From contig NZ_RHOD01000018.1 in assembly GCF_003946095.1 (NCBI RefSeq), forward strand, positions 1-57,655: DNA of 57,655 bases, in the 5' to 3' direction. Every line of letters begins with the position of its first letter. Positions within the stretch are counted from its first letter, which is position 1. The position numbers and the translations under genes were made by a program. Origin of the DNA: Levilactobacillus lindianensis. Lineage in GTDB: Bacteria > Bacillota > Bacilli > Lactobacillales > Lactobacillaceae. Below, in pieces: positions 36,586-43,159 of this stretch. The notes under the pieces were generated by a model that saw only the letters and a program-made list of their open reading frames with translations, was not told the origin of the DNA and did not search any database.

Positions 36586-36615
36586 AACGGGTAAGATTAG
36601 TGAGATAACAAATTA

Positions 36616-36640
36616 ACGGGAGAATTTCTCCCGTTTTTTT
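36616..36640 (+). terminator. Rho-independent terminator of the DUF1002 gene
   Basis: ACGGGAGAA (36616-36624) and TTCTCCCGT (36626-36634) form a tight hairpin followed by T7. Confidence 0.92.
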
Positions 36641-36816
36641 GTGCGTAAATTTAAATTTCACAATCTTTAGGCAAATCGGGACGATTGTAACTTACAGAAA
36701 GCGTCTTCAACGGGAACTTGTAGGCTGCAACTGAAATTGAATGACGAAAGTTTATGCATTACCAATCATTTTAGCCAAGATAGTTCGTTAATGAAAATGA
36801 ACGTGAGTTCGATAAA

Positions 36817-36831
36817 TGAAAACGCTTTTCA
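36817..36831 (+). promoter_or_regulatory. CRE-like palindrome upstream of the LysM hydrolase
   Basis: TGAAAACGCTTTTCA has perfect 6-bp arms around CGC. It resembles a CcpA or other LacI-family operator but is one base longer than the 14-bp CRE consensus. It lies about 120 bases upstream of the promoter at 36953. The rest of the 36641-37064 gap shows no gene. A 16-codon ATG frame there has no ribosome site. Confidence 0.45.
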
Positions 36832-36952
36832 CCATGGTATCAAGGCTTTCAGCGATCTGTGAATGAGTGATTAGTAGATTAGGGAACGTCAGTTCAATGA
36901 GTAAAACTAGTTATGAAATTCTTAATTATTCACAAGGAACTGGGAAAACGTG

Positions 36953-36961
36953 TGGTAATAT
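36953..36961 (+). promoter_or_regulatory. Extended -10 promoter of the LysM-NlpC/P60 gene
   Basis: TGgTAATAT within GTGTGGTAATAT. The GTGTGGTAA core is shared with the mraZ promoter. No clear -35 is seen. The leader is about 100 bases. Confidence 0.5.
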
Positions 36962-37064
36962 TAATTTGTGATTCGTATTTACTATGAACGAACACCACCT
37001 GCTTCAATTTTGGCGGGTTGGGTTCACAAGCTTTGAAAATCTAAAGTCATAAAAGGACGTGTTG

Positions 37065-38423
37065 GTGAAGATGAGTACAGGACAACGAAAAACCAAAGCA
37101 GTTGTTGGGGTCGTTAGTGCCATTGGGGCATTAGCAGCAGGTGCCACCATTACTGCAAATGCGGATACCGTTCAAGTTAAGGCCGGAGACACCGTTTGGG
37201 CTCTTTCACAGAAGCTAGGGGTTTCCATTCAGGATCTCGAAAAGCAGAATTCAATTGACAGTTCAACAGACATGATTTTTGTCGGTCAGAAATTACAAGT
37301 CAAGTCATCACAGAGCAAGCAAACAATTACGGTGAAGTCCGGGGATACGTTATGGGATCTTGCCCAGGCCTACCATGTTTCCGTGGCACAGCTACAAGCT
37401 GCCAACCACTTGTCAGGGGACATGTTGAGTGTCGGTCAGCAATTATCACTGCCTACCGGGGCTTCCAAGGCTGCTGATACCACGACGTCATCCACGTCGA
37501 CCACGCAACAGAGTCAGAGTACTGCCAAAGCCAATGCGGTTCAGGCTCAGATTGTAGCCGAACAACAAGCCGCTGCAGCCAAGCAACAGAAGCAACAAGC
37601 TGCCAGTGTCAGCGAGTCATCATCAAGTACAGCCACGACGAGTTCTTCGTCTACTGCTAGTACCGAGAAACACACACGCGCAGCTGTCGCCGAAACCACA
37701 CCCGTTTCGCAAGCCTCACAATCGTCTGCTAGCCAAAGCAGTCAGTCACAACCTAGCCAGTCAACGTCTAGTGTTGCTAGCCAATCTAGTGTGAGCCAAT
37801 CAAGTTCTAGTCAAGCGCAACCGGCTCAATCCAGCCAACAGAGTCAGACTAGTCAACAGACCAGTGTTAGCCAACCAGCTAGCTCTAGTCAAGCCCAGCA
37901 GACCACGCAAACTGGCAGCCAGAATGCGACAGCAACCAGCCAGACGAAGCGAATTAAGACGACCACGCAAGCAGCCGTTAAGAAGCAGGCACGTGTCCGT
38001 CAATCGACAACCACGACGACAACGAGTTCGTCATCAAGTGCTAAGACCAATACGAACTTATCCAGTGGTTCTGTGACTGGTTTGGCCTTGAAGCTGGCCT
38101 CAGCTAACATTCCTTACGTTTGGGGCGGATCTTCGCTCAGTGGGATGGACTGTTCTGGATTAGTGGCTTACGTTTACAAGAATGCATTAGGCGTGAACTT
38201 GCCACATAACACGGTTTCTCAAGAAGCCTTCGTGTCGAAGCACTCCGTGGGAACTGCTAAGCCTGGGGATATCCTCTTCTGGGGTAATTCTGGGGCAACG
38301 TATCACGATGCGATCTACTTAGGGAATAACCAATTCGTTGCTGCACCTGAACCAGGGGACAACGTGAAGGTTCAACAGATTAGCAAGTACTTTATGCCAT
38401 CATTTGCTGGGACATTGAAGTAG
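37065..38423 (+). CDS. Secreted LysM-NlpC/P60 peptidoglycan hydrolase (p60-like)
   Basis: A signal peptide (VVGVVSAIGALAAGATITAN, cleaved near ANA-D) is followed by two LysM domains (about residues 35-80 and 88-130) that bind peptidoglycan. A 200-residue linker, almost only S, Q, T and A, leads to a C-terminal NlpC/P60 domain. The catalytic residues are C363 (MDCSGL) and H414 (YHDAIYLG). The third site reads VAAPEPGD, with Ala where many relatives have His. It likely cleaves D-Glu to diamino acid bonds during cell separation. GTG 37065 has AAGGA 7 bases upstream. ATG 37071 is the alternative. Confidence 0.92.
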   Translation: MKMSTGQRKTKAVVGVVSAIGALAAGATITANADTVQVKAGDTVWALSQKLGVSIQDLEKQNSIDSSTDMIFVGQKLQVKSSQSKQTITVKSGDTLWDLAQAYHVSVAQLQAANHLSGDMLSVGQQLSLPTGASKAADTTTSSTSTTQQSQSTAKANAVQAQIVAEQQAAAAKQQKQQAASVSESSSSTATTSSSSTASTEKHTRAAVAETTPVSQASQSSASQSSQSQPSQSTSSVASQSSVSQSSSSQAQPAQSSQQSQTSQQTSVSQPASSSQAQQTTQTGSQNATATSQTKRIKTTTQAAVKKQARVRQSTTTTTTSSSSSAKTNTNLSSGSVTGLALKLASANIPYVWGGSSLSGMDCSGLVAYVYKNALGVNLPHNTVSQEAFVSKHSVGTAKPGDILFWGNSGATYHDAIYLGNNQFVAAPEPGDNVKVQQISKYFMPSFAGTLK

Positions 38424-38491
38424 ACTGTTGCGACCAGTTGCCGGTCATTTAGCCAGTTTTATTATTTCGTGAACAAAAGTTAAGAAAATCG

Positions 38492-38520
38492 TTAACAAAT
38501 CGACAGGCAAGTGGTATGAT
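38492..38520 (+). promoter_or_regulatory. Strong promoter of the small gene at 38584
   Basis: TTAACA (38492-38497), a 17-bp spacer and TGgTATGAT (38512-38520) give near-consensus -35 and extended -10 elements. It is one of the best promoters in the window. Confidence 0.75.
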
Positions 38521-38583
38521 TCCTTTTAGTCATTTATAGACGTGTTAAAAAATTCTATAGTTGGTTAAAGGAGTTGTTGAAGG

Positions 38584-38790
38584 ATGAGTAATCGAGTAGA
38601 GATTCTGGAAGAATATCGGCAAGCTAACAACCAGTTGGCGACATTAAAACGGAAGGAATCGGAGAGCATTCGTCCCACTGAGGACACTGTGCGGATTGAA
38701 CCCCATTACGGTGAAGAAATGACCTCACTGACGGATAAATGTGCTCAGCTGGACATGATTCTGGAAGCAATGGCTGCTTCGGAAGATTAA
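38584..38790 (+). CDS. Small soluble protein of unknown function
   Basis: A 68-residue protein, highly charged and probably helical, with hydrophobic spacing in VEILEEYRQANNQLATLKRK and LTDKCAQLDMILEAMAASED that could form a coiled coil. There is no signal peptide or membrane segment. AAAGGAG lies 9 bases before the ATG. It has a strong promoter of its own and a bidirectional terminator, so it is probably well expressed. I do not recognise a family. Confidence 0.75.
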   Translation: MSNRVEILEEYRQANNQLATLKRKESESIRPTEDTVRIEPHYGEEMTSLTDKCAQLDMILEAMAASED

Positions 38791-38815
38791 ACAAACAAAT
38801 ATTGGTTAAGATAGC

Positions 38816-38862: not shown

Positions 38863-39831
38863 TTAAATTGTGATGTCGAACCAGAAGGGATATTGGGTAA
38901 CGCCGACGTAAACGTCGAAGAAGCGTCCACCCATCTCCTCGCCGTCTAATTGGCCGTATTCAATGGCCGGAACGGTGAGGTGGACATTCGATGCCTTCGA
39001 TGCCTGATAGTAGTGAACGGCCTTAGACGTCAAATGACGCTTAAATACGAGGCGTAAGGCCAACCAGAGTAGTTTGAAGAAATTAGGTTTTTCGATGACG
39101 ACCAAATGGAGCTGATGGTCGTGAACCGTGGCCCCCGGGGCAATACCCACACCACCTCCGAAGTAGGGATGGTTGGTGGTGGTCACTAGAAAGGCGTTGG
39201 GATAGATATCTCGCTGATTGCCGACGTGAACCGTCAGAGTAAAGCCGGTCTGATTGTAGTAAACACTCAGTGCTGAAGCCAGATAGGAAAGGGAGCCCAG
39301 GTGATGCTTATTCAACCAGACCTTGGCTTTGGATTGATTGGCTTGGGAGATGATGGCGGCGTCAAAGCCAATCCCAAGATTGTTCGTAAAGACGCCACGT
39401 TCCTGCTTGATGGTTTCGTCATAGCTGCCGATGTCGATATCGGTTGCATGAGTGCATTGGGTGACTTGCTTTAGAGCCGTTTGCCAATCCATGGCCATAC
39501 CCACGCCTCTGGCGAAATCGTTTCCCGAACCGATCGGGATATAGGCCACCGGAATTCGGTAATGGCGGGGGAAACGTGTGAGCCCGTTGATGGCTTGGTG
39601 TAGGGTGCCATCACCGCCTACTGCCAGGACCACCCAATCTTGATGCGGGGTATCTGGCAATTGCTTCGCGAATTGTTCACTCAAGAGTACGGCGTGATTT
39701 GGGTACTCCGAAACAGCCACTTCGTAGGAGACCGCAGCGGCGTCAAGCTGTTGTTTGATAGCGGGCCAGACCTCTTTGGCGTGGCCACTACCCGCGTGTT
39801 CATTTAGGATGATATAGAACTGGACACTCAC
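38863..39831 (-). CDS. Diacylglycerol kinase family lipid kinase
   Basis: The N-terminal DAGK catalytic domain has the nucleotide motif VGGDGTLHQAINGL (GGDGT at 72-76) and IPIGSGNDFARGVG, both diagnostic of the DgkB/YegS/BmrU family. FFDVYVGVTQYPF closes the C-terminal domain. The family phosphorylates diacylglycerol or related lipids at the membrane. The exact substrate is not clear, since DgkB and YegS/BmrU-type members differ. The length of 322 residues is usual. AGGAGAAG lies just before the ATG on the minus strand. Its downstream side ends at the 18-bp bidirectional terminator. Confidence 0.9.
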   Translation of the reverse strand: MSVQFYIILNEHAGSGHAKEVWPAIKQQLDAAAVSYEVAVSEYPNHAVLLSEQFAKQLPDTPHQDWVVLAVGGDGTLHQAINGLTRFPRHYRIPVAYIPIGSGNDFARGVGMAMDWQTALKQVTQCTHATDIDIGSYDETIKQERGVFTNNLGIGFDAAIISQANQSKAKVWLNKHHLGSLSYLASALSVYYNQTGFTLTVHVGNQRDIYPNAFLVTTTNHPYFGGGVGIAPGATVHDHQLHLVVIEKPNFFKLLWLALRLVFKRHLTSKAVHYYQASKASNVHLTVPAIEYGQLDGEEMGGRFFDVYVGVTQYPFWFDITI

Positions 39832-39942
39832 CGTACTTCTCCTCTCAATGATTAATCTTAACCATTATAAACGAAAACCGTTTGACTGCCTAGTCATTCT
39901 CCTGGAACTTTCCATTGTCGTAAGAAACGGGGCAAATTGGGC

Positions 39943-40350
39943 GACGAATTTACAATTGAAGTACAACACTAATTGAATAAAAAGACCCATAGCTTGACCA
40001 AATCGGCGAGCCTGTTCTAGTGACAACGGTAGAGCGACTAACGCGATACACTTTGGTTCAAAAGGCCAAACGAAAGGACGGTTGATCAGCGAATGAAGCC
40101 CTTACAGCAATTTCTAAAGAATGTGTTCTTTCACTGACTCCGGACCATGGCACAGAATTTTTGGACTTAGCGAAAATCCTTGAAAACTTGGTGTGACGGT
40201 CTACTGGCCGAATACTTTCCTAAAAATAAAAACCTAAAACCGCGGACGGACGAGAATATTAGGAACTGTAAATAGTAGCTAAACCACCGTACCTCTGAAG
40301 AGGTTTTATTTGATAAAGTGTTGCGCTTGGTTTGACAATTTGTCAGTTCA
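39943..40350 (+). mobile_element. Decayed IS30-family insertion sequence
   Basis: The left end GACGAATTTACAATTGAAG (39945-39963) and the right end, read on the other strand as GACAAATTGTCAAACCAAG, are related terminal repeats. Between them the plus strand encodes scattered pieces of an IS30 transposase in order: TTVERLTRYTLVQKAKRKDG, LTPDHGTEFLDLAKI, GVTVYWPN, YFPKNKNLKPRTDENIR and TSEEVLFDKVLRLV. The N-terminal half, the segment between VYWPN and YFPKN, and codons near LNH are missing. Stops and frame changes separate the pieces. The copy is about 0.4 kb against about 1 kb for a full element. The gap 39832-39942 shows nothing else I can support. Confidence 0.9.
39998..40335 (+). pseudogene. 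IS30-family transposase remnant (DDE domain fragments)
   Basis: Reading starts near GEPVLVTTVERLTRY and meets a TGA after KRKDG. It continues through SANEALTAISKECVLSLTPD and HGTEFLDLAKILEN, then shifts frame into GVTVYWPN, shifts again into YFPKNK, and meets two TAG codons before LNHRTSEEVLFDKVLRLV and the natural TGA at 40333-40335. The TPDHGTEF segment carries the second catalytic Asp of the DDE triad. The pattern is of internal deletions plus point stops. It cannot make an active enzyme. Confidence 0.88.
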
Positions 40351-40360
40351 AAATTAAACT
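40332..40360 (+). promoter_or_regulatory. Hybrid promoter: outward IS30-end -35 with TAAACT -10
   Basis: A consensus TTGACA (40332-40337) lies in the right terminal repeat of the IS remnant. Exactly 17 bp away is TAAACT (40355-40360), a -10 shared with the mraZ, ftsA and mnmA promoters here. It points at the 142-residue gene with a leader of about 105 bases. That leader holds GGTATCCCTGA (40376-40386), which pairs with TCAGGGAATCC (40427-40437). Confidence 0.65.
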
Positions 40361-40470
40361 TTTATTATGTGTAAAGGTATCCCTGATTATAAGGCTAGAT
40401 TGCTTGCCCCATATTCTAATGTATTGTCAGGGAATCCTAGAAATATCATTTTAGTGAGTTAGGAGAAATT

Positions 40471-40899
40471 ATGACGAAAGCACCCATTTTCATTGTTGAA
40501 GTAGAACCAGACATGCAAGTTAAGGTCAAAAAGCAACCGGTGCAAGACGACGTTTCACTGGCTATGCTAGGAATGTCATATTGCAACTTTCTGACTATGA
40601 CTCAAGCAAAAGTTAGTACCATTGGTAGTGCGCTTGAAAAGACACATGCCGACGGTCCCAATGTCGAGCCGTTCGAGCATACAAGAACTCTTGAAGTTGG
40701 TGTCGACACAGGAAGTGGAGAGGTTTACGCTAAGGGCAAAGACATGACAACCGATGAAATCCTTTCTTTAATCGGCATGTTCTTAGTCAAGGAGTTCTAT
40801 GGCAGTCTTGTGTCCAGTACAACTGACTTACAGAGCTATATGGAAAGCACGATTAAAATTTATCAGGGCATGAATTCAGAAGCTCAATTCAACTGGTAG
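40471..40899 (+). CDS. Orphan 142-residue protein of unknown function
   Basis: TTAGGAG is 6-7 bases before the ATG, so the gene is probably translated. The protein is mixed alpha/beta in appearance, with an opening strand-like stretch APIFIVEVEPDMQVKVKKQP, a charged middle (EPFEHTRTLEVGVDTGSG) and a C-terminal helical part (TTDEILSLIGMFLVKEFYG). There is no signal peptide, no clear membrane segment and no motif I recognise. The gene is more AT-rich than its neighbours and is flanked by IS30-derived ends in opposite orientation, which suggests acquisition. It has its own likely promoter and a strong terminator. Confidence 0.8.
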   Translation: MTKAPIFIVEVEPDMQVKVKKQPVQDDVSLAMLGMSYCNFLTMTQAKVSTIGSALEKTHADGPNVEPFEHTRTLEVGVDTGSGEVYAKGKDMTTDEILSLIGMFLVKEFYGSLVSSTTDLQSYMESTIKIYQGMNSEAQFNW

Positions 40900-40909
40900 A
40901 AAAAATACT

Positions 40910-40976
40910 AAACTTAGAGGCATAAGAGTTATCCGCTGGGATGCCCTTATGCCTCTAAGCTTAGCATTTTTATTTT
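40910..40976 (+). terminator. Rho-independent terminator of the orphan gene
   Basis: CTTAGAGGCATAAG (40913-40926) and CTTATGCCTCTAAG (40946-40959) pair perfectly over 14 bp, and CTAA/TTAG extends the stem. TTTTTATTTT follows. An IS30-type end begins a few bases further on. Confidence 0.88.
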
Positions 40977-40977
40977 G

Positions 40978-41031
40978 TGGCGAATTGTAAAACCAAGTAC
41001 AAGAGTTTATCAAATAAAACCTCTTTTAAAA
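40978..41031 (-). mobile_element. IS30-family terminal fragment, inverted
   Basis: Read on the minus strand, this encodes EVLFDKLLYLV and then the terminal repeat GTTTTACAATTCGCC. It matches the 3' end of the remnant at 40300-40347 (EVLFDKVLRLV, then TTTGACAATTTGTC) in the opposite orientation. No more of the element is recognisable. The remaining bases to 41123 show no gene I can support. Confidence 0.8.
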
Positions 41032-41123
41032 TGCACTGGTCTAGAATCGTTGTCATACGATGATTTGATCGCCGCTGACAGTTTTTAGTCCACTCATTTG
41101 TCCGCAATTAAGAGTAGGGGATG

Positions 41124-41165: not shown

Positions 41166-42845
41166 TTACTTGGTCATAATAAACATTGGTAAAATCATTG
41201 GGTGACGTTCAGTCTTCGCAAAGAGGAAGTTCTGAAGGTCATCAATGACCGCGTTACGAATGGAAGCCTCGGTAGCCTTCGGATTACGCATGGCTCTGCG
41301 AATCGTCTGGAAGACCCGCCGACGACCTTCATTGAGTAACTCGCCAGACTCTCGCATGTAAACAAAGCCACGAGAGAGAAGGTCAGGACCGGCCTTGATT
41401 TCTTGGTTCTTCAGGTCGATAGTGGCCACAACGACCACGAGTCCTTCTTCGGAAAGTAATTGACGGTCGCGTAAGACGACGTTACCAATATCACCGATTC
41501 CGGAACCGTCGATGTAGACGTCACCGGCACTGAAATGACCCGCAACACGGGCGGAATCCTTGGTCAGAGCTAAGACATCCCCATTTTGGAGGATGAAGCT
41601 ATGGTCGAGAGGGACACCACATTGTTCGGCCAATTCGGTATGAATCTTTAACATCCGGTATTCCCCGTGAATTGGCATGAAGAATTTCGGTTGCATCAGC
41701 CGGAGCATCAGCTTCTGTTCTTCTTGACCACCATGTCCAGAGGTATGGATGTTGTTAACCTTCCCGTGAATGACGTTGGCGCCGGCTTCTTCCAGTTCGT
41801 TAATGACCCGGTTTACGGAAATCGTGTTACCAGGGATTGGGTTACTGGAGAAGACCACGGTGTCACCAGGTTGAATTGAAATCTGACGGTGAGTACCGTT
41901 AGCGATCCGTGAAAGGGCCGCCATGGGTTCACCTTGAGAACCGGTACAAAGAATCATAACCTTGTTGGCTGGCAGGGAGCGAATGGCATTGGCATCGACT
42001 AACGCTTCGTCAGGGATGTTCAAGTAGCCTAGTTCACGACCGTTTACGATCGCTGCTTCCATGGAGCGACCGAACACCGCGATCTTACGACCATGGGCGA
42101 GGGCAGTTTCACAGGCCGTTTCAATCCGTGAGATGTTTGACGCGAAGGTGGCAAAGATAACCCGACCTTCAACTTGATCAAAGATCTTACGAATTGACTT
42201 GCCAACCCATTTTTCAGACTTGGTCCAGATTGGACGCTCGGCGTTCGTGCTATCAGACATCAAGCACAAAACACCGTCGGCTCCCAACTTGGCCATCTTT
42301 TGAAGATCAGGCGGCTGATTGGTAACGGGCGTCAGATCGAACTTATAGTCCCCAGTTTCCACGATGGTTCCGACCGGGGTGTGCACGGCAATTCCTAAAG
42401 TATCGGGAATGGAGTGGGTCGTCCGGAAGAAGGTCACACTCATCTTCCGAAACTTCAGCACAGTATCATCGTCAATTGTGTGTAACTCAGTCGATTTAAG
42501 TAATCCGTGTTCTTCAAGCTTGTTCTTAATCAACGCTAAGGCTAACGGACCGGCATAAACCGGAACGTTAAGGGCCTTGAGTAGATACGGGATACCGCCA
42601 ATATGGTCTTCGTGGCCGTGGGTGATCACTAGCGCCTTGATCTTGGATTGGTTTTCAACGAGGTATTGATAATCGGGGATGACATAATCGATCCCTAATA
42701 GTTCGTCTTCAGGAAACTTGATTCCGGCATCGATCAGAATAATTTCATCCTGAAATTGGATACCGTAAGTGTTTTTCCCGATTTCACCAAGTCCACCCAC
42801 GCCAAAGATAGCGGTCTCGTTATTTTTGACGTTTAACTTGTTCAT
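41166..42845 (-). CDS. rnjA: Ribonuclease J (RNase J1 type)
   Basis: RNase J is the 5'-3' exonuclease and endonuclease central to mRNA decay and rRNA maturation in Gram-positives. The metallo-beta-lactamase motif [10 protein letters not shown] gives zinc ligands H76, H78, D80 and H81. The beta-CASP region contains [20 protein letters not shown] and [15 protein letters not shown]. The length of 559 residues matches RNase J1. The ATG overlaps the rpoY stop (ATGA), so the two are translationally coupled. This rpoY-rnjA order is the Firmicute norm. Confidence 0.96.
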
Positions 42846-43060
42846 TCACTGAACTCCGTTAATTTGTAATTCGGATTCTGTTGTTCGTAAGCCAAGGTCT
42901 TACCTTCCATGGCTTCAATGAATTCGATGTTATGGTCCGTGTGGGCCTCAACTTGGGCGCGGGCTTCAACTTCGGTGTCCGCTTCCAAATAGAGAGAATG
43001 GGTTTCCTCGCGCTTAGGATTCCGTTTTTTATCGTTTTGATAATAAACTTTATAAATCAC
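42842..43060 (-). CDS. rpoY: RNA polymerase epsilon subunit RpoY
   Basis: RpoY (DUF1447) is a small subunit of Firmicute RNA polymerase. The protein starts [20 protein letters not shown] and continues [20 protein letters not shown], the family pattern. GTG 43060 follows AAAGGAG by 8-9 bases and gives 72 residues, the normal size. An in-frame ATG at 43114 with its own AAGGA site would add 18 residues that cover a leader hairpin. It overlaps rnjA by 4 bases. Confidence 0.93.
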
Positions 43061-43159
43061 TGACAAAACTCCTTTAAAAAAATAATTTAATTCACCATTA
43101 GAGAGGTGAATCATTTATGTCCTTCCGAACTGCGGGTTGCTTACACAACAATTAGCACA

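Follow-up and report, generated by a model that had tools for sequence, protein, structure and literature searches.

The gap between dagK and rnjA of Levilactobacillus lindianensis contains a real gene under purifying selection, ORF142, as judged from one species pair. The protein encoded by ORF142 matches no described family in the libraries searched; otherwise ORF142 is an ordinary lineage-restricted accessory gene, and it is known from two Levilactobacillus species. Unless another sequence is named, positions given here refer to the window, that is, the whole stretch of 57,655 nucleotides that was analyzed. As the joint best explanation, held with somewhat better than even confidence, we propose that ORF142 is a genuine accessory gene under constraint, rich in AT and probably of foreign origin, in a variable slot, with a promoter donated in part by an insertion sequence (IS) and a terminator of the IS110 type.

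Layout of the locus

The gap of about 1.3 kb lies between dagK (38863-39831, minus strand) and rnjA (41166-42845, minus strand), for which we keep the names used in the initial annotation. From left to right, it holds a decayed IS30-family element that has retained its outer left end (39943-40344, plus strand, delimited by alignment to an intact 1092-bp IS30), a leader of about 125 bp, ORF142 (40471-40899, plus strand, 142 aa), a terminator-like palindrome (40900-40971, no strand assigned) and what is left of another IS30-family element in inverted orientation, its 3' end without the outer part (40981-41107, minus strand, identified by DNA and protein matches). Apart from ORF142 and its leader, the gap is chiefly mobile-element debris. 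The IS30 motifs listed in the initial annotation are present, namely TPDHGTEF at 40137-40160 and EVLFDKVLRLV at 40300-40332 on the plus strand, and EVLFDKLLYLV at 40991-41023 on the minus strand; following that annotation, we take the transposase pieces to belong to the IS30 family. The 142-residue frame described there was likewise recovered, with its own AGGAG ribosome-binding site (40461-40465, plus strand, by sequence reading) positioned 5 nt upstream of the ATG.

Across 29 species, the length of the dagK-rnjA gap ranges from 129 to 1337 bp, which marks it as a variable slot. In three other species, the gap is occupied by a 120-aa gene (L028 in genome G027, L029 in G009 and L033 in G028), with a match to SnoaL_2 (PF12680) in the one case tested.

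The GC content of ORF142 is 43.1%, compared with 52.3% for dagK and 49.2% for rnjA, and it is below that of all 42 open reading frames of at least 150 aa with which it was compared in the window (lowest 46.3%; 5 overlapping frames of a total of 47 were excluded). The description of ORF142 as AT-richer than its neighbors thus holds for these genes, but not for a 90-aa frame adjoining rnjA (42842-43114, minus strand), which has a GC content of only 39.6%. Because this neighboring frame is lower still, the low GC content of ORF142 is weaker as a sign of foreign origin.

ORF142 is a constrained gene

The sole credible relative of ORF142 is found in Levilactobacillus humaensis 213-9(3) (NZ_BROB01000014.1, locus L011, on contig C14 of genome G007), where it adjoins the same dagK and encodes a protein 93% identical across all 142 residues. 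The two genes differ at 30 nucleotides, distributed 5/5/20 over the three codon positions, an excess at third positions with p = 0.0002. For this one species pair, dN is 0.030 and dS is 0.265, giving a dN/dS of 0.114. Purifying selection of this strength identifies ORF142 as a real gene. A short frame without a family could in principle be open by chance in IS debris, but the third-position excess, the low dN/dS and the presence of both a ribosome-binding site and a terminator make this extremely improbable.

The predicted product is small and acidic, with a pI of 4.6 and a GRAVY of -0.14, and no signal or membrane segment is apparent by eye. The two halves of the protein were also compared as a possible internal repeat, which was rejected (p about 0.11).

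Searches for families, folds, and homologs

The initial annotation had found no recognizable family, and profile and structure checks agree with it in giving neither a family nor a fold. There was no match to ORF142 in Pfam, NCBIfam, or PADLOC, and the best PHROGs matches (E 0.065 and 0.11-0.13) are not credible. Phage and plasmid records gave no match even at E 10, and viral contigs gave no confirmed match. Sequence searches of the PDB returned best E values of 0.78 and 0.058, which we do not credit. Two AlphaFold models built on the two-sequence alignment reached a mean pLDDT of 50.8 and 46.4. Both models show strands, a helix or helices, strands, and two helices, and their quality is too low for a role to be deduced. 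A Foldseek search of the PDB with the first model yielded nothing at E <= 0.001, the best hit having an E of 0.2.

With the genome of origin counted throughout, ORF142 is present in 2 of 98 relatives and 2 of 35 genus genomes, and credible matches numbered two in a family sample of 397 genomes, one in an order sample of 395, and one in a phylum sample of 398. The single order-level match is the genome of origin; L. humaensis was not among the matches at this level and may not have been drawn. When 84,980 species genomes were scanned with a pattern, only close relatives were returned. In these genome samples and pattern scans, ORF142 therefore has no homologs outside a narrow lineage. A literature search on "Levilactobacillus humaensis" returned no papers.

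Several weaker matches were judged to be due to chance. A stretch from Blautia lies within a 1241-aa frame that resembles a glycoside hydrolase. Four weak family-level hits (L043, L044, L045, and L046; E 0.006-0.047) were dismissed, two after reading their contexts: the L044 hit lies in a 165-aa frame reading like a membrane protein and the L045 hit in a region that reads as phage-like. Four order-level hits were similarly weak (E 0.007-0.01). One phylum-level hit, in a single genome of the 398 (G784, E 6.6e-4), falls in a 341-aa frame whose sequence looks beta-rich. Short DNA matches of 20-48 bases in 17 other family genomes were also discarded.

The lack of credible homologs outside two species in the searched sets would be expected if ORF142 had arisen de novo and become expressed once an upstream IS30 insertion lent it a -35 box. 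Half of the candidate promoter indeed lies inside the IS end, and an experiment with coli can be cited in favor of such an origin (PMC11101190). None of the 32 gene-less gaps described below matches the passenger DNA of about 630 bp, however, which means that local sequence did not give rise to it, and a dN/dS of 0.11 fits an established protein. We consider a de novo origin to be quite improbable.

Distribution and phylogeny

Among the 35 genomes of the genus set, dagK was found strongly in 34. In the exception, G032, what remained was a weak match to another gene, and its dagK region is missing from the assembly. In G032, dagK and most of the adjoining LysM-type gene are missing between two contig ends (C73 and C145), which reflects either an assembly gap or a deletion. 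The dagK-rnjA gap could be scored in 34 genomes, comprising 29 that include the window, four more, and L. humaensis. Both ORF142 and the left IS30 piece are present in 2 of these 34 genomes, and neither is present in the other 32. Intervals L027 and L017 contain 19- and 24-base matches to IS30 (E 0.15), which were regarded as chance. The expectation that the gene and the IS30 remnants come and go together is thereby borne out, and ORF142 is not a core gene of the lineage. Because related species are not independent, the count of 2 versus 32 represents one or two events rather than 34.

In a concatenated 18-gene tree, in which G032 and the outgroups have missing parts, the window genome (G000) branches first, followed by G031 and then by L. 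humaensis together with G032, with a bootstrap of 100 throughout. The two carriers are thus not sisters, and between them lies a close relative, G031, with an empty gap of 159 bp. This arrangement implies either a clean loss in G031 or an exchange between lineages. Non-sister carriers would also be expected if ORF142 were an old gene of the genus that was lost in nearly all species. Given that 32 of the 34 scorable gaps carry no trace of it and that its GC content is low, we regard such a history as very improbable.

Variants shared near the gap are only suggestive of an exchange between lineages. At 39680-39945, the window and L. humaensis share 14 variants, compared with 4 shared by L. humaensis and G031, whereas 38863-39500 leans in the reverse direction (29 versus 48); the contrast between the two stretches has a Fisher p of 0.003, with borders that were set once the data had been seen. 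Farther from the gap, 36590-37350 (38 versus 29) and 38150-38800 (20 versus 11) likewise favor the pair of the window and L. humaensis, so that the region is a mosaic. On the rnjA side there is no clear signal of exchange (9 versus 6 beside the gap). Synonymous divergence between the carriers is 0.27 for ORF142 versus 0.93 for dagK. Of 331 overlapping 142-codon windows from neighboring genes, 15.7% are as similar at third positions as ORF142, and an exchange of ORF142 is therefore not proven.

The left IS30 piece

The intact reference used for the left piece was a 1092-bp IS30 copy of G032 with both ends present. The left piece matches positions 1-51, 656-875, and 934-1092 of this copy, with 86.8% identity over 402 aligned bases and internal deletions of 595, 58, 24, 12, and 1 bases in the window. 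Its features are those of the IS30 family, with a DDE (rve) transposase carrying a TPDHGTEF-type motif and matching terminal repeats. In a related intact transposase, L047, HTH_38 scores above its curated cut-off and rve below it. In L. humaensis, 877 bases of the left IS30 are deleted and the remainder is 86.5% identical to the intact G032 copy over 215 bases. Since the outer and inner junctions are identical in both carriers and the internal losses differ, the alignments point to one ancestral insertion that decayed separately in the two carriers. Three changes relative to the intact IS30 are common to both left pieces. Two of them recur in the right piece and could represent an IS30 subtype trait.

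The right IS30 piece and the question of a composite element

The right remnant is longer than it had been described initially. It contains an in-frame 38-residue match to the C terminus of an IS30 transposase, with a score of 85 compared with a maximum of 49 in 2000 shuffles, and it shows right-end homology; the 3' part of the element is what remains. Taken alone, this piece has no Pfam match. Its DNA identity to the intact G032 IS30 is 66.7% over 132 bases. None of the IS30 copies fetched was clearly closer (best 71% over 107 bases), and two IS30 fragments at contig ends reach 77% over 74 bases. Over 67 nt, the left and right arms pair as inverted sequences with 76% complementarity.

In L. 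humaensis, no right IS30 end was seen on either side of an IS3-family element present there. A different rnjA terminator comes after the hairpin region and is seemingly interrupted by the IS3-family element, in a right flank assembled from two contigs joined by inference only. The IS3-like element (L011 5500-6395, and L069) appears to lie inside the rnjA terminator hairpin, and both contigs end there. IS30 matches of 10-19 bases in the right flanks of L. humaensis and G032 (E >= 0.24) were dropped as chance.

The layout had been likened to an old composite insertion, and this comparison stands in part. Two inward-facing IS30 3' ends do enclose the gene in inverted orientation, the 159-bp gap of G031 represents an empty site without a trace of IS30 or gene, and the other 32 scorable intervals have neither the gene nor IS30. 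A composite IS30-ORF142-IS30 transposon could thus have inserted as one unit and then decayed, with the unequal decay of its copies reflecting IS30 subtypes and with the right end lost in L. humaensis. Such a loss is plausible, as the L. humaensis sequence to the right of the hairpin, including the rnjA terminator, looks replaced, and the two changes common to all three pieces give the impression of one IS30 type. However, the two copies do not look to be of the same kind and age, judging by their identity to the same intact IS30 (86.8% versus 66.7%), and the second carrier has the left piece only, in a locus with a rearranged right flank. The right copy no longer has its outer end, and no target duplication is readable. 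Tn6330 (ISApl1-mcr-1-ISApl1) is described as carrying its passenger between IS30-family copies that disappear once it has inserted (PMC5821093). The same source describes those copies as direct repeats, whereas the copies at the ORF142 locus are inverted, are unequally decayed, are not both present in the second carrier, and flank a passenger without a known family. Overall, a composite origin appears unlikely. The unequal identity and the missing right end in L. humaensis leave either separate insertions or a composite of mixed type; based on these comparisons, we prefer separate insertions, which the two IS30 ends look like, to a composite whose right end of another type was lost in L. humaensis.

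A candidate promoter and a terminator hairpin

The right end of the left IS30 piece contains a TTGACA hexamer directed toward ORF142 and followed, 17 nt on, by TAAACT in the passenger DNA (40332-40360, plus strand; 10 of 12 consensus bases). This is the layout of a fusion promoter, with a -35 box in the IS end and a -10 box outside it at a distance of 16-18 nt, and both hexamers and their spacing are retained in L. humaensis. A promoter scan found 6 sites compared with 2.9 +/- 2.0 expected, so that the candidate site is not significant by the scan alone. According to a review, right ends of ISs, including IS30, can supply outward -35 boxes that form fusion (hybrid) promoters, with the -35 box in the right inverted repeat (PMC9330008). 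The ORF142 locus resembles these in its outward TTGACA in the IS30 end and its -10-like box in the adjoining DNA. Unlike the elements described there, the IS copy upstream of ORF142 is broken, and the promoter is predicted from sequence. The -35 half of the ORF142 promoter probably derives from the left IS30. A structure in the 5' leader was rejected (z 0.14 and -1.38).

Downstream of ORF142, the segment 40896-40980 folds at -35.2 kcal/mol (z -5.9) and includes the 14 uninterrupted perfect pairs that had been noted as a terminator. The first 58 bp of the palindrome match copies in other Levilactobacillus genomes. At six loci of G022, this 58-bp hairpin forms the left edge of an IS110-family element (with Pfam checked on one), and on the Lactiplantibacillus carotarum plasmid NZ_OX443571.1 it immediately precedes an annotated IS110 transposase. 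The hairpin loci examined include L071-L075, L083, L080, and L125. Many other copies are located at contig ends, where the downstream sequence is not visible, and in G014 and G010 the hairpin copy has no frame of IS110 size after it. Unlike the left edges of IS110-family elements, the palindrome in the window has both outer arms and no IS110 after it. Both arms were present in 1 of 17 other copies compared, in G033, and an exact-pattern search of the 35 genus genomes found the palindrome in the window alone. From these matches, the palindrome looks like mobile-element debris too. Matches of the hairpin to Rfam microRNA models fell far below their thresholds. As a separate observation, the right end of the IS110 element of G022 abuts stems resembling the intrinsic terminators of neighboring genes (L072, L074, L075, and L083), which suggests a target preference.

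Discussion

The reading that we favor would explain the locus as follows. ORF142 would have entered, or been exchanged into, the variable dagK-rnjA gap, which would also have gathered IS30-family elements on separate occasions. The promoter of ORF142 probably takes its -35 half from the left IS30 and would have its -10 half in passenger DNA, and the strong IS110-type hairpin would terminate transcription. With an IS-derived -35 box, a passenger -10 box, and a hairpin terminator, we infer that ORF142 forms a self-contained one-gene unit. A bolder version of this reading holds that ORF142 founds a new family that was switched on and kept via the IS30-donated promoter, and that the gene, the donated promoter, and the IS110-type terminator then spread between species by recombination as a cassette pieced together from scraps of mobile elements; we consider this version improbable.

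Bacterial ORFans, or taxonomically restricted genes, are short, AT-rich, and constrained, and have no credible homologs outside a narrow lineage. ORF142 shares these general traits, but differs in that two species that are not sisters share it, together with an IS30 remnant at an identical junction. Our best guess for its role, held with low confidence, is that of a cytosolic protein that derives from a mobile element and is dispensable. It is distinctly doubtful that this role can be narrowed further to that of a small immunity, defense, or regulatory protein.

If the favored reading is correct, the dagK-rnjA gap would provide a small natural example of dead insertion sequences leaving usable promoter and terminator parts, and would show how a gene without a known family persists in an IS-rich slot.
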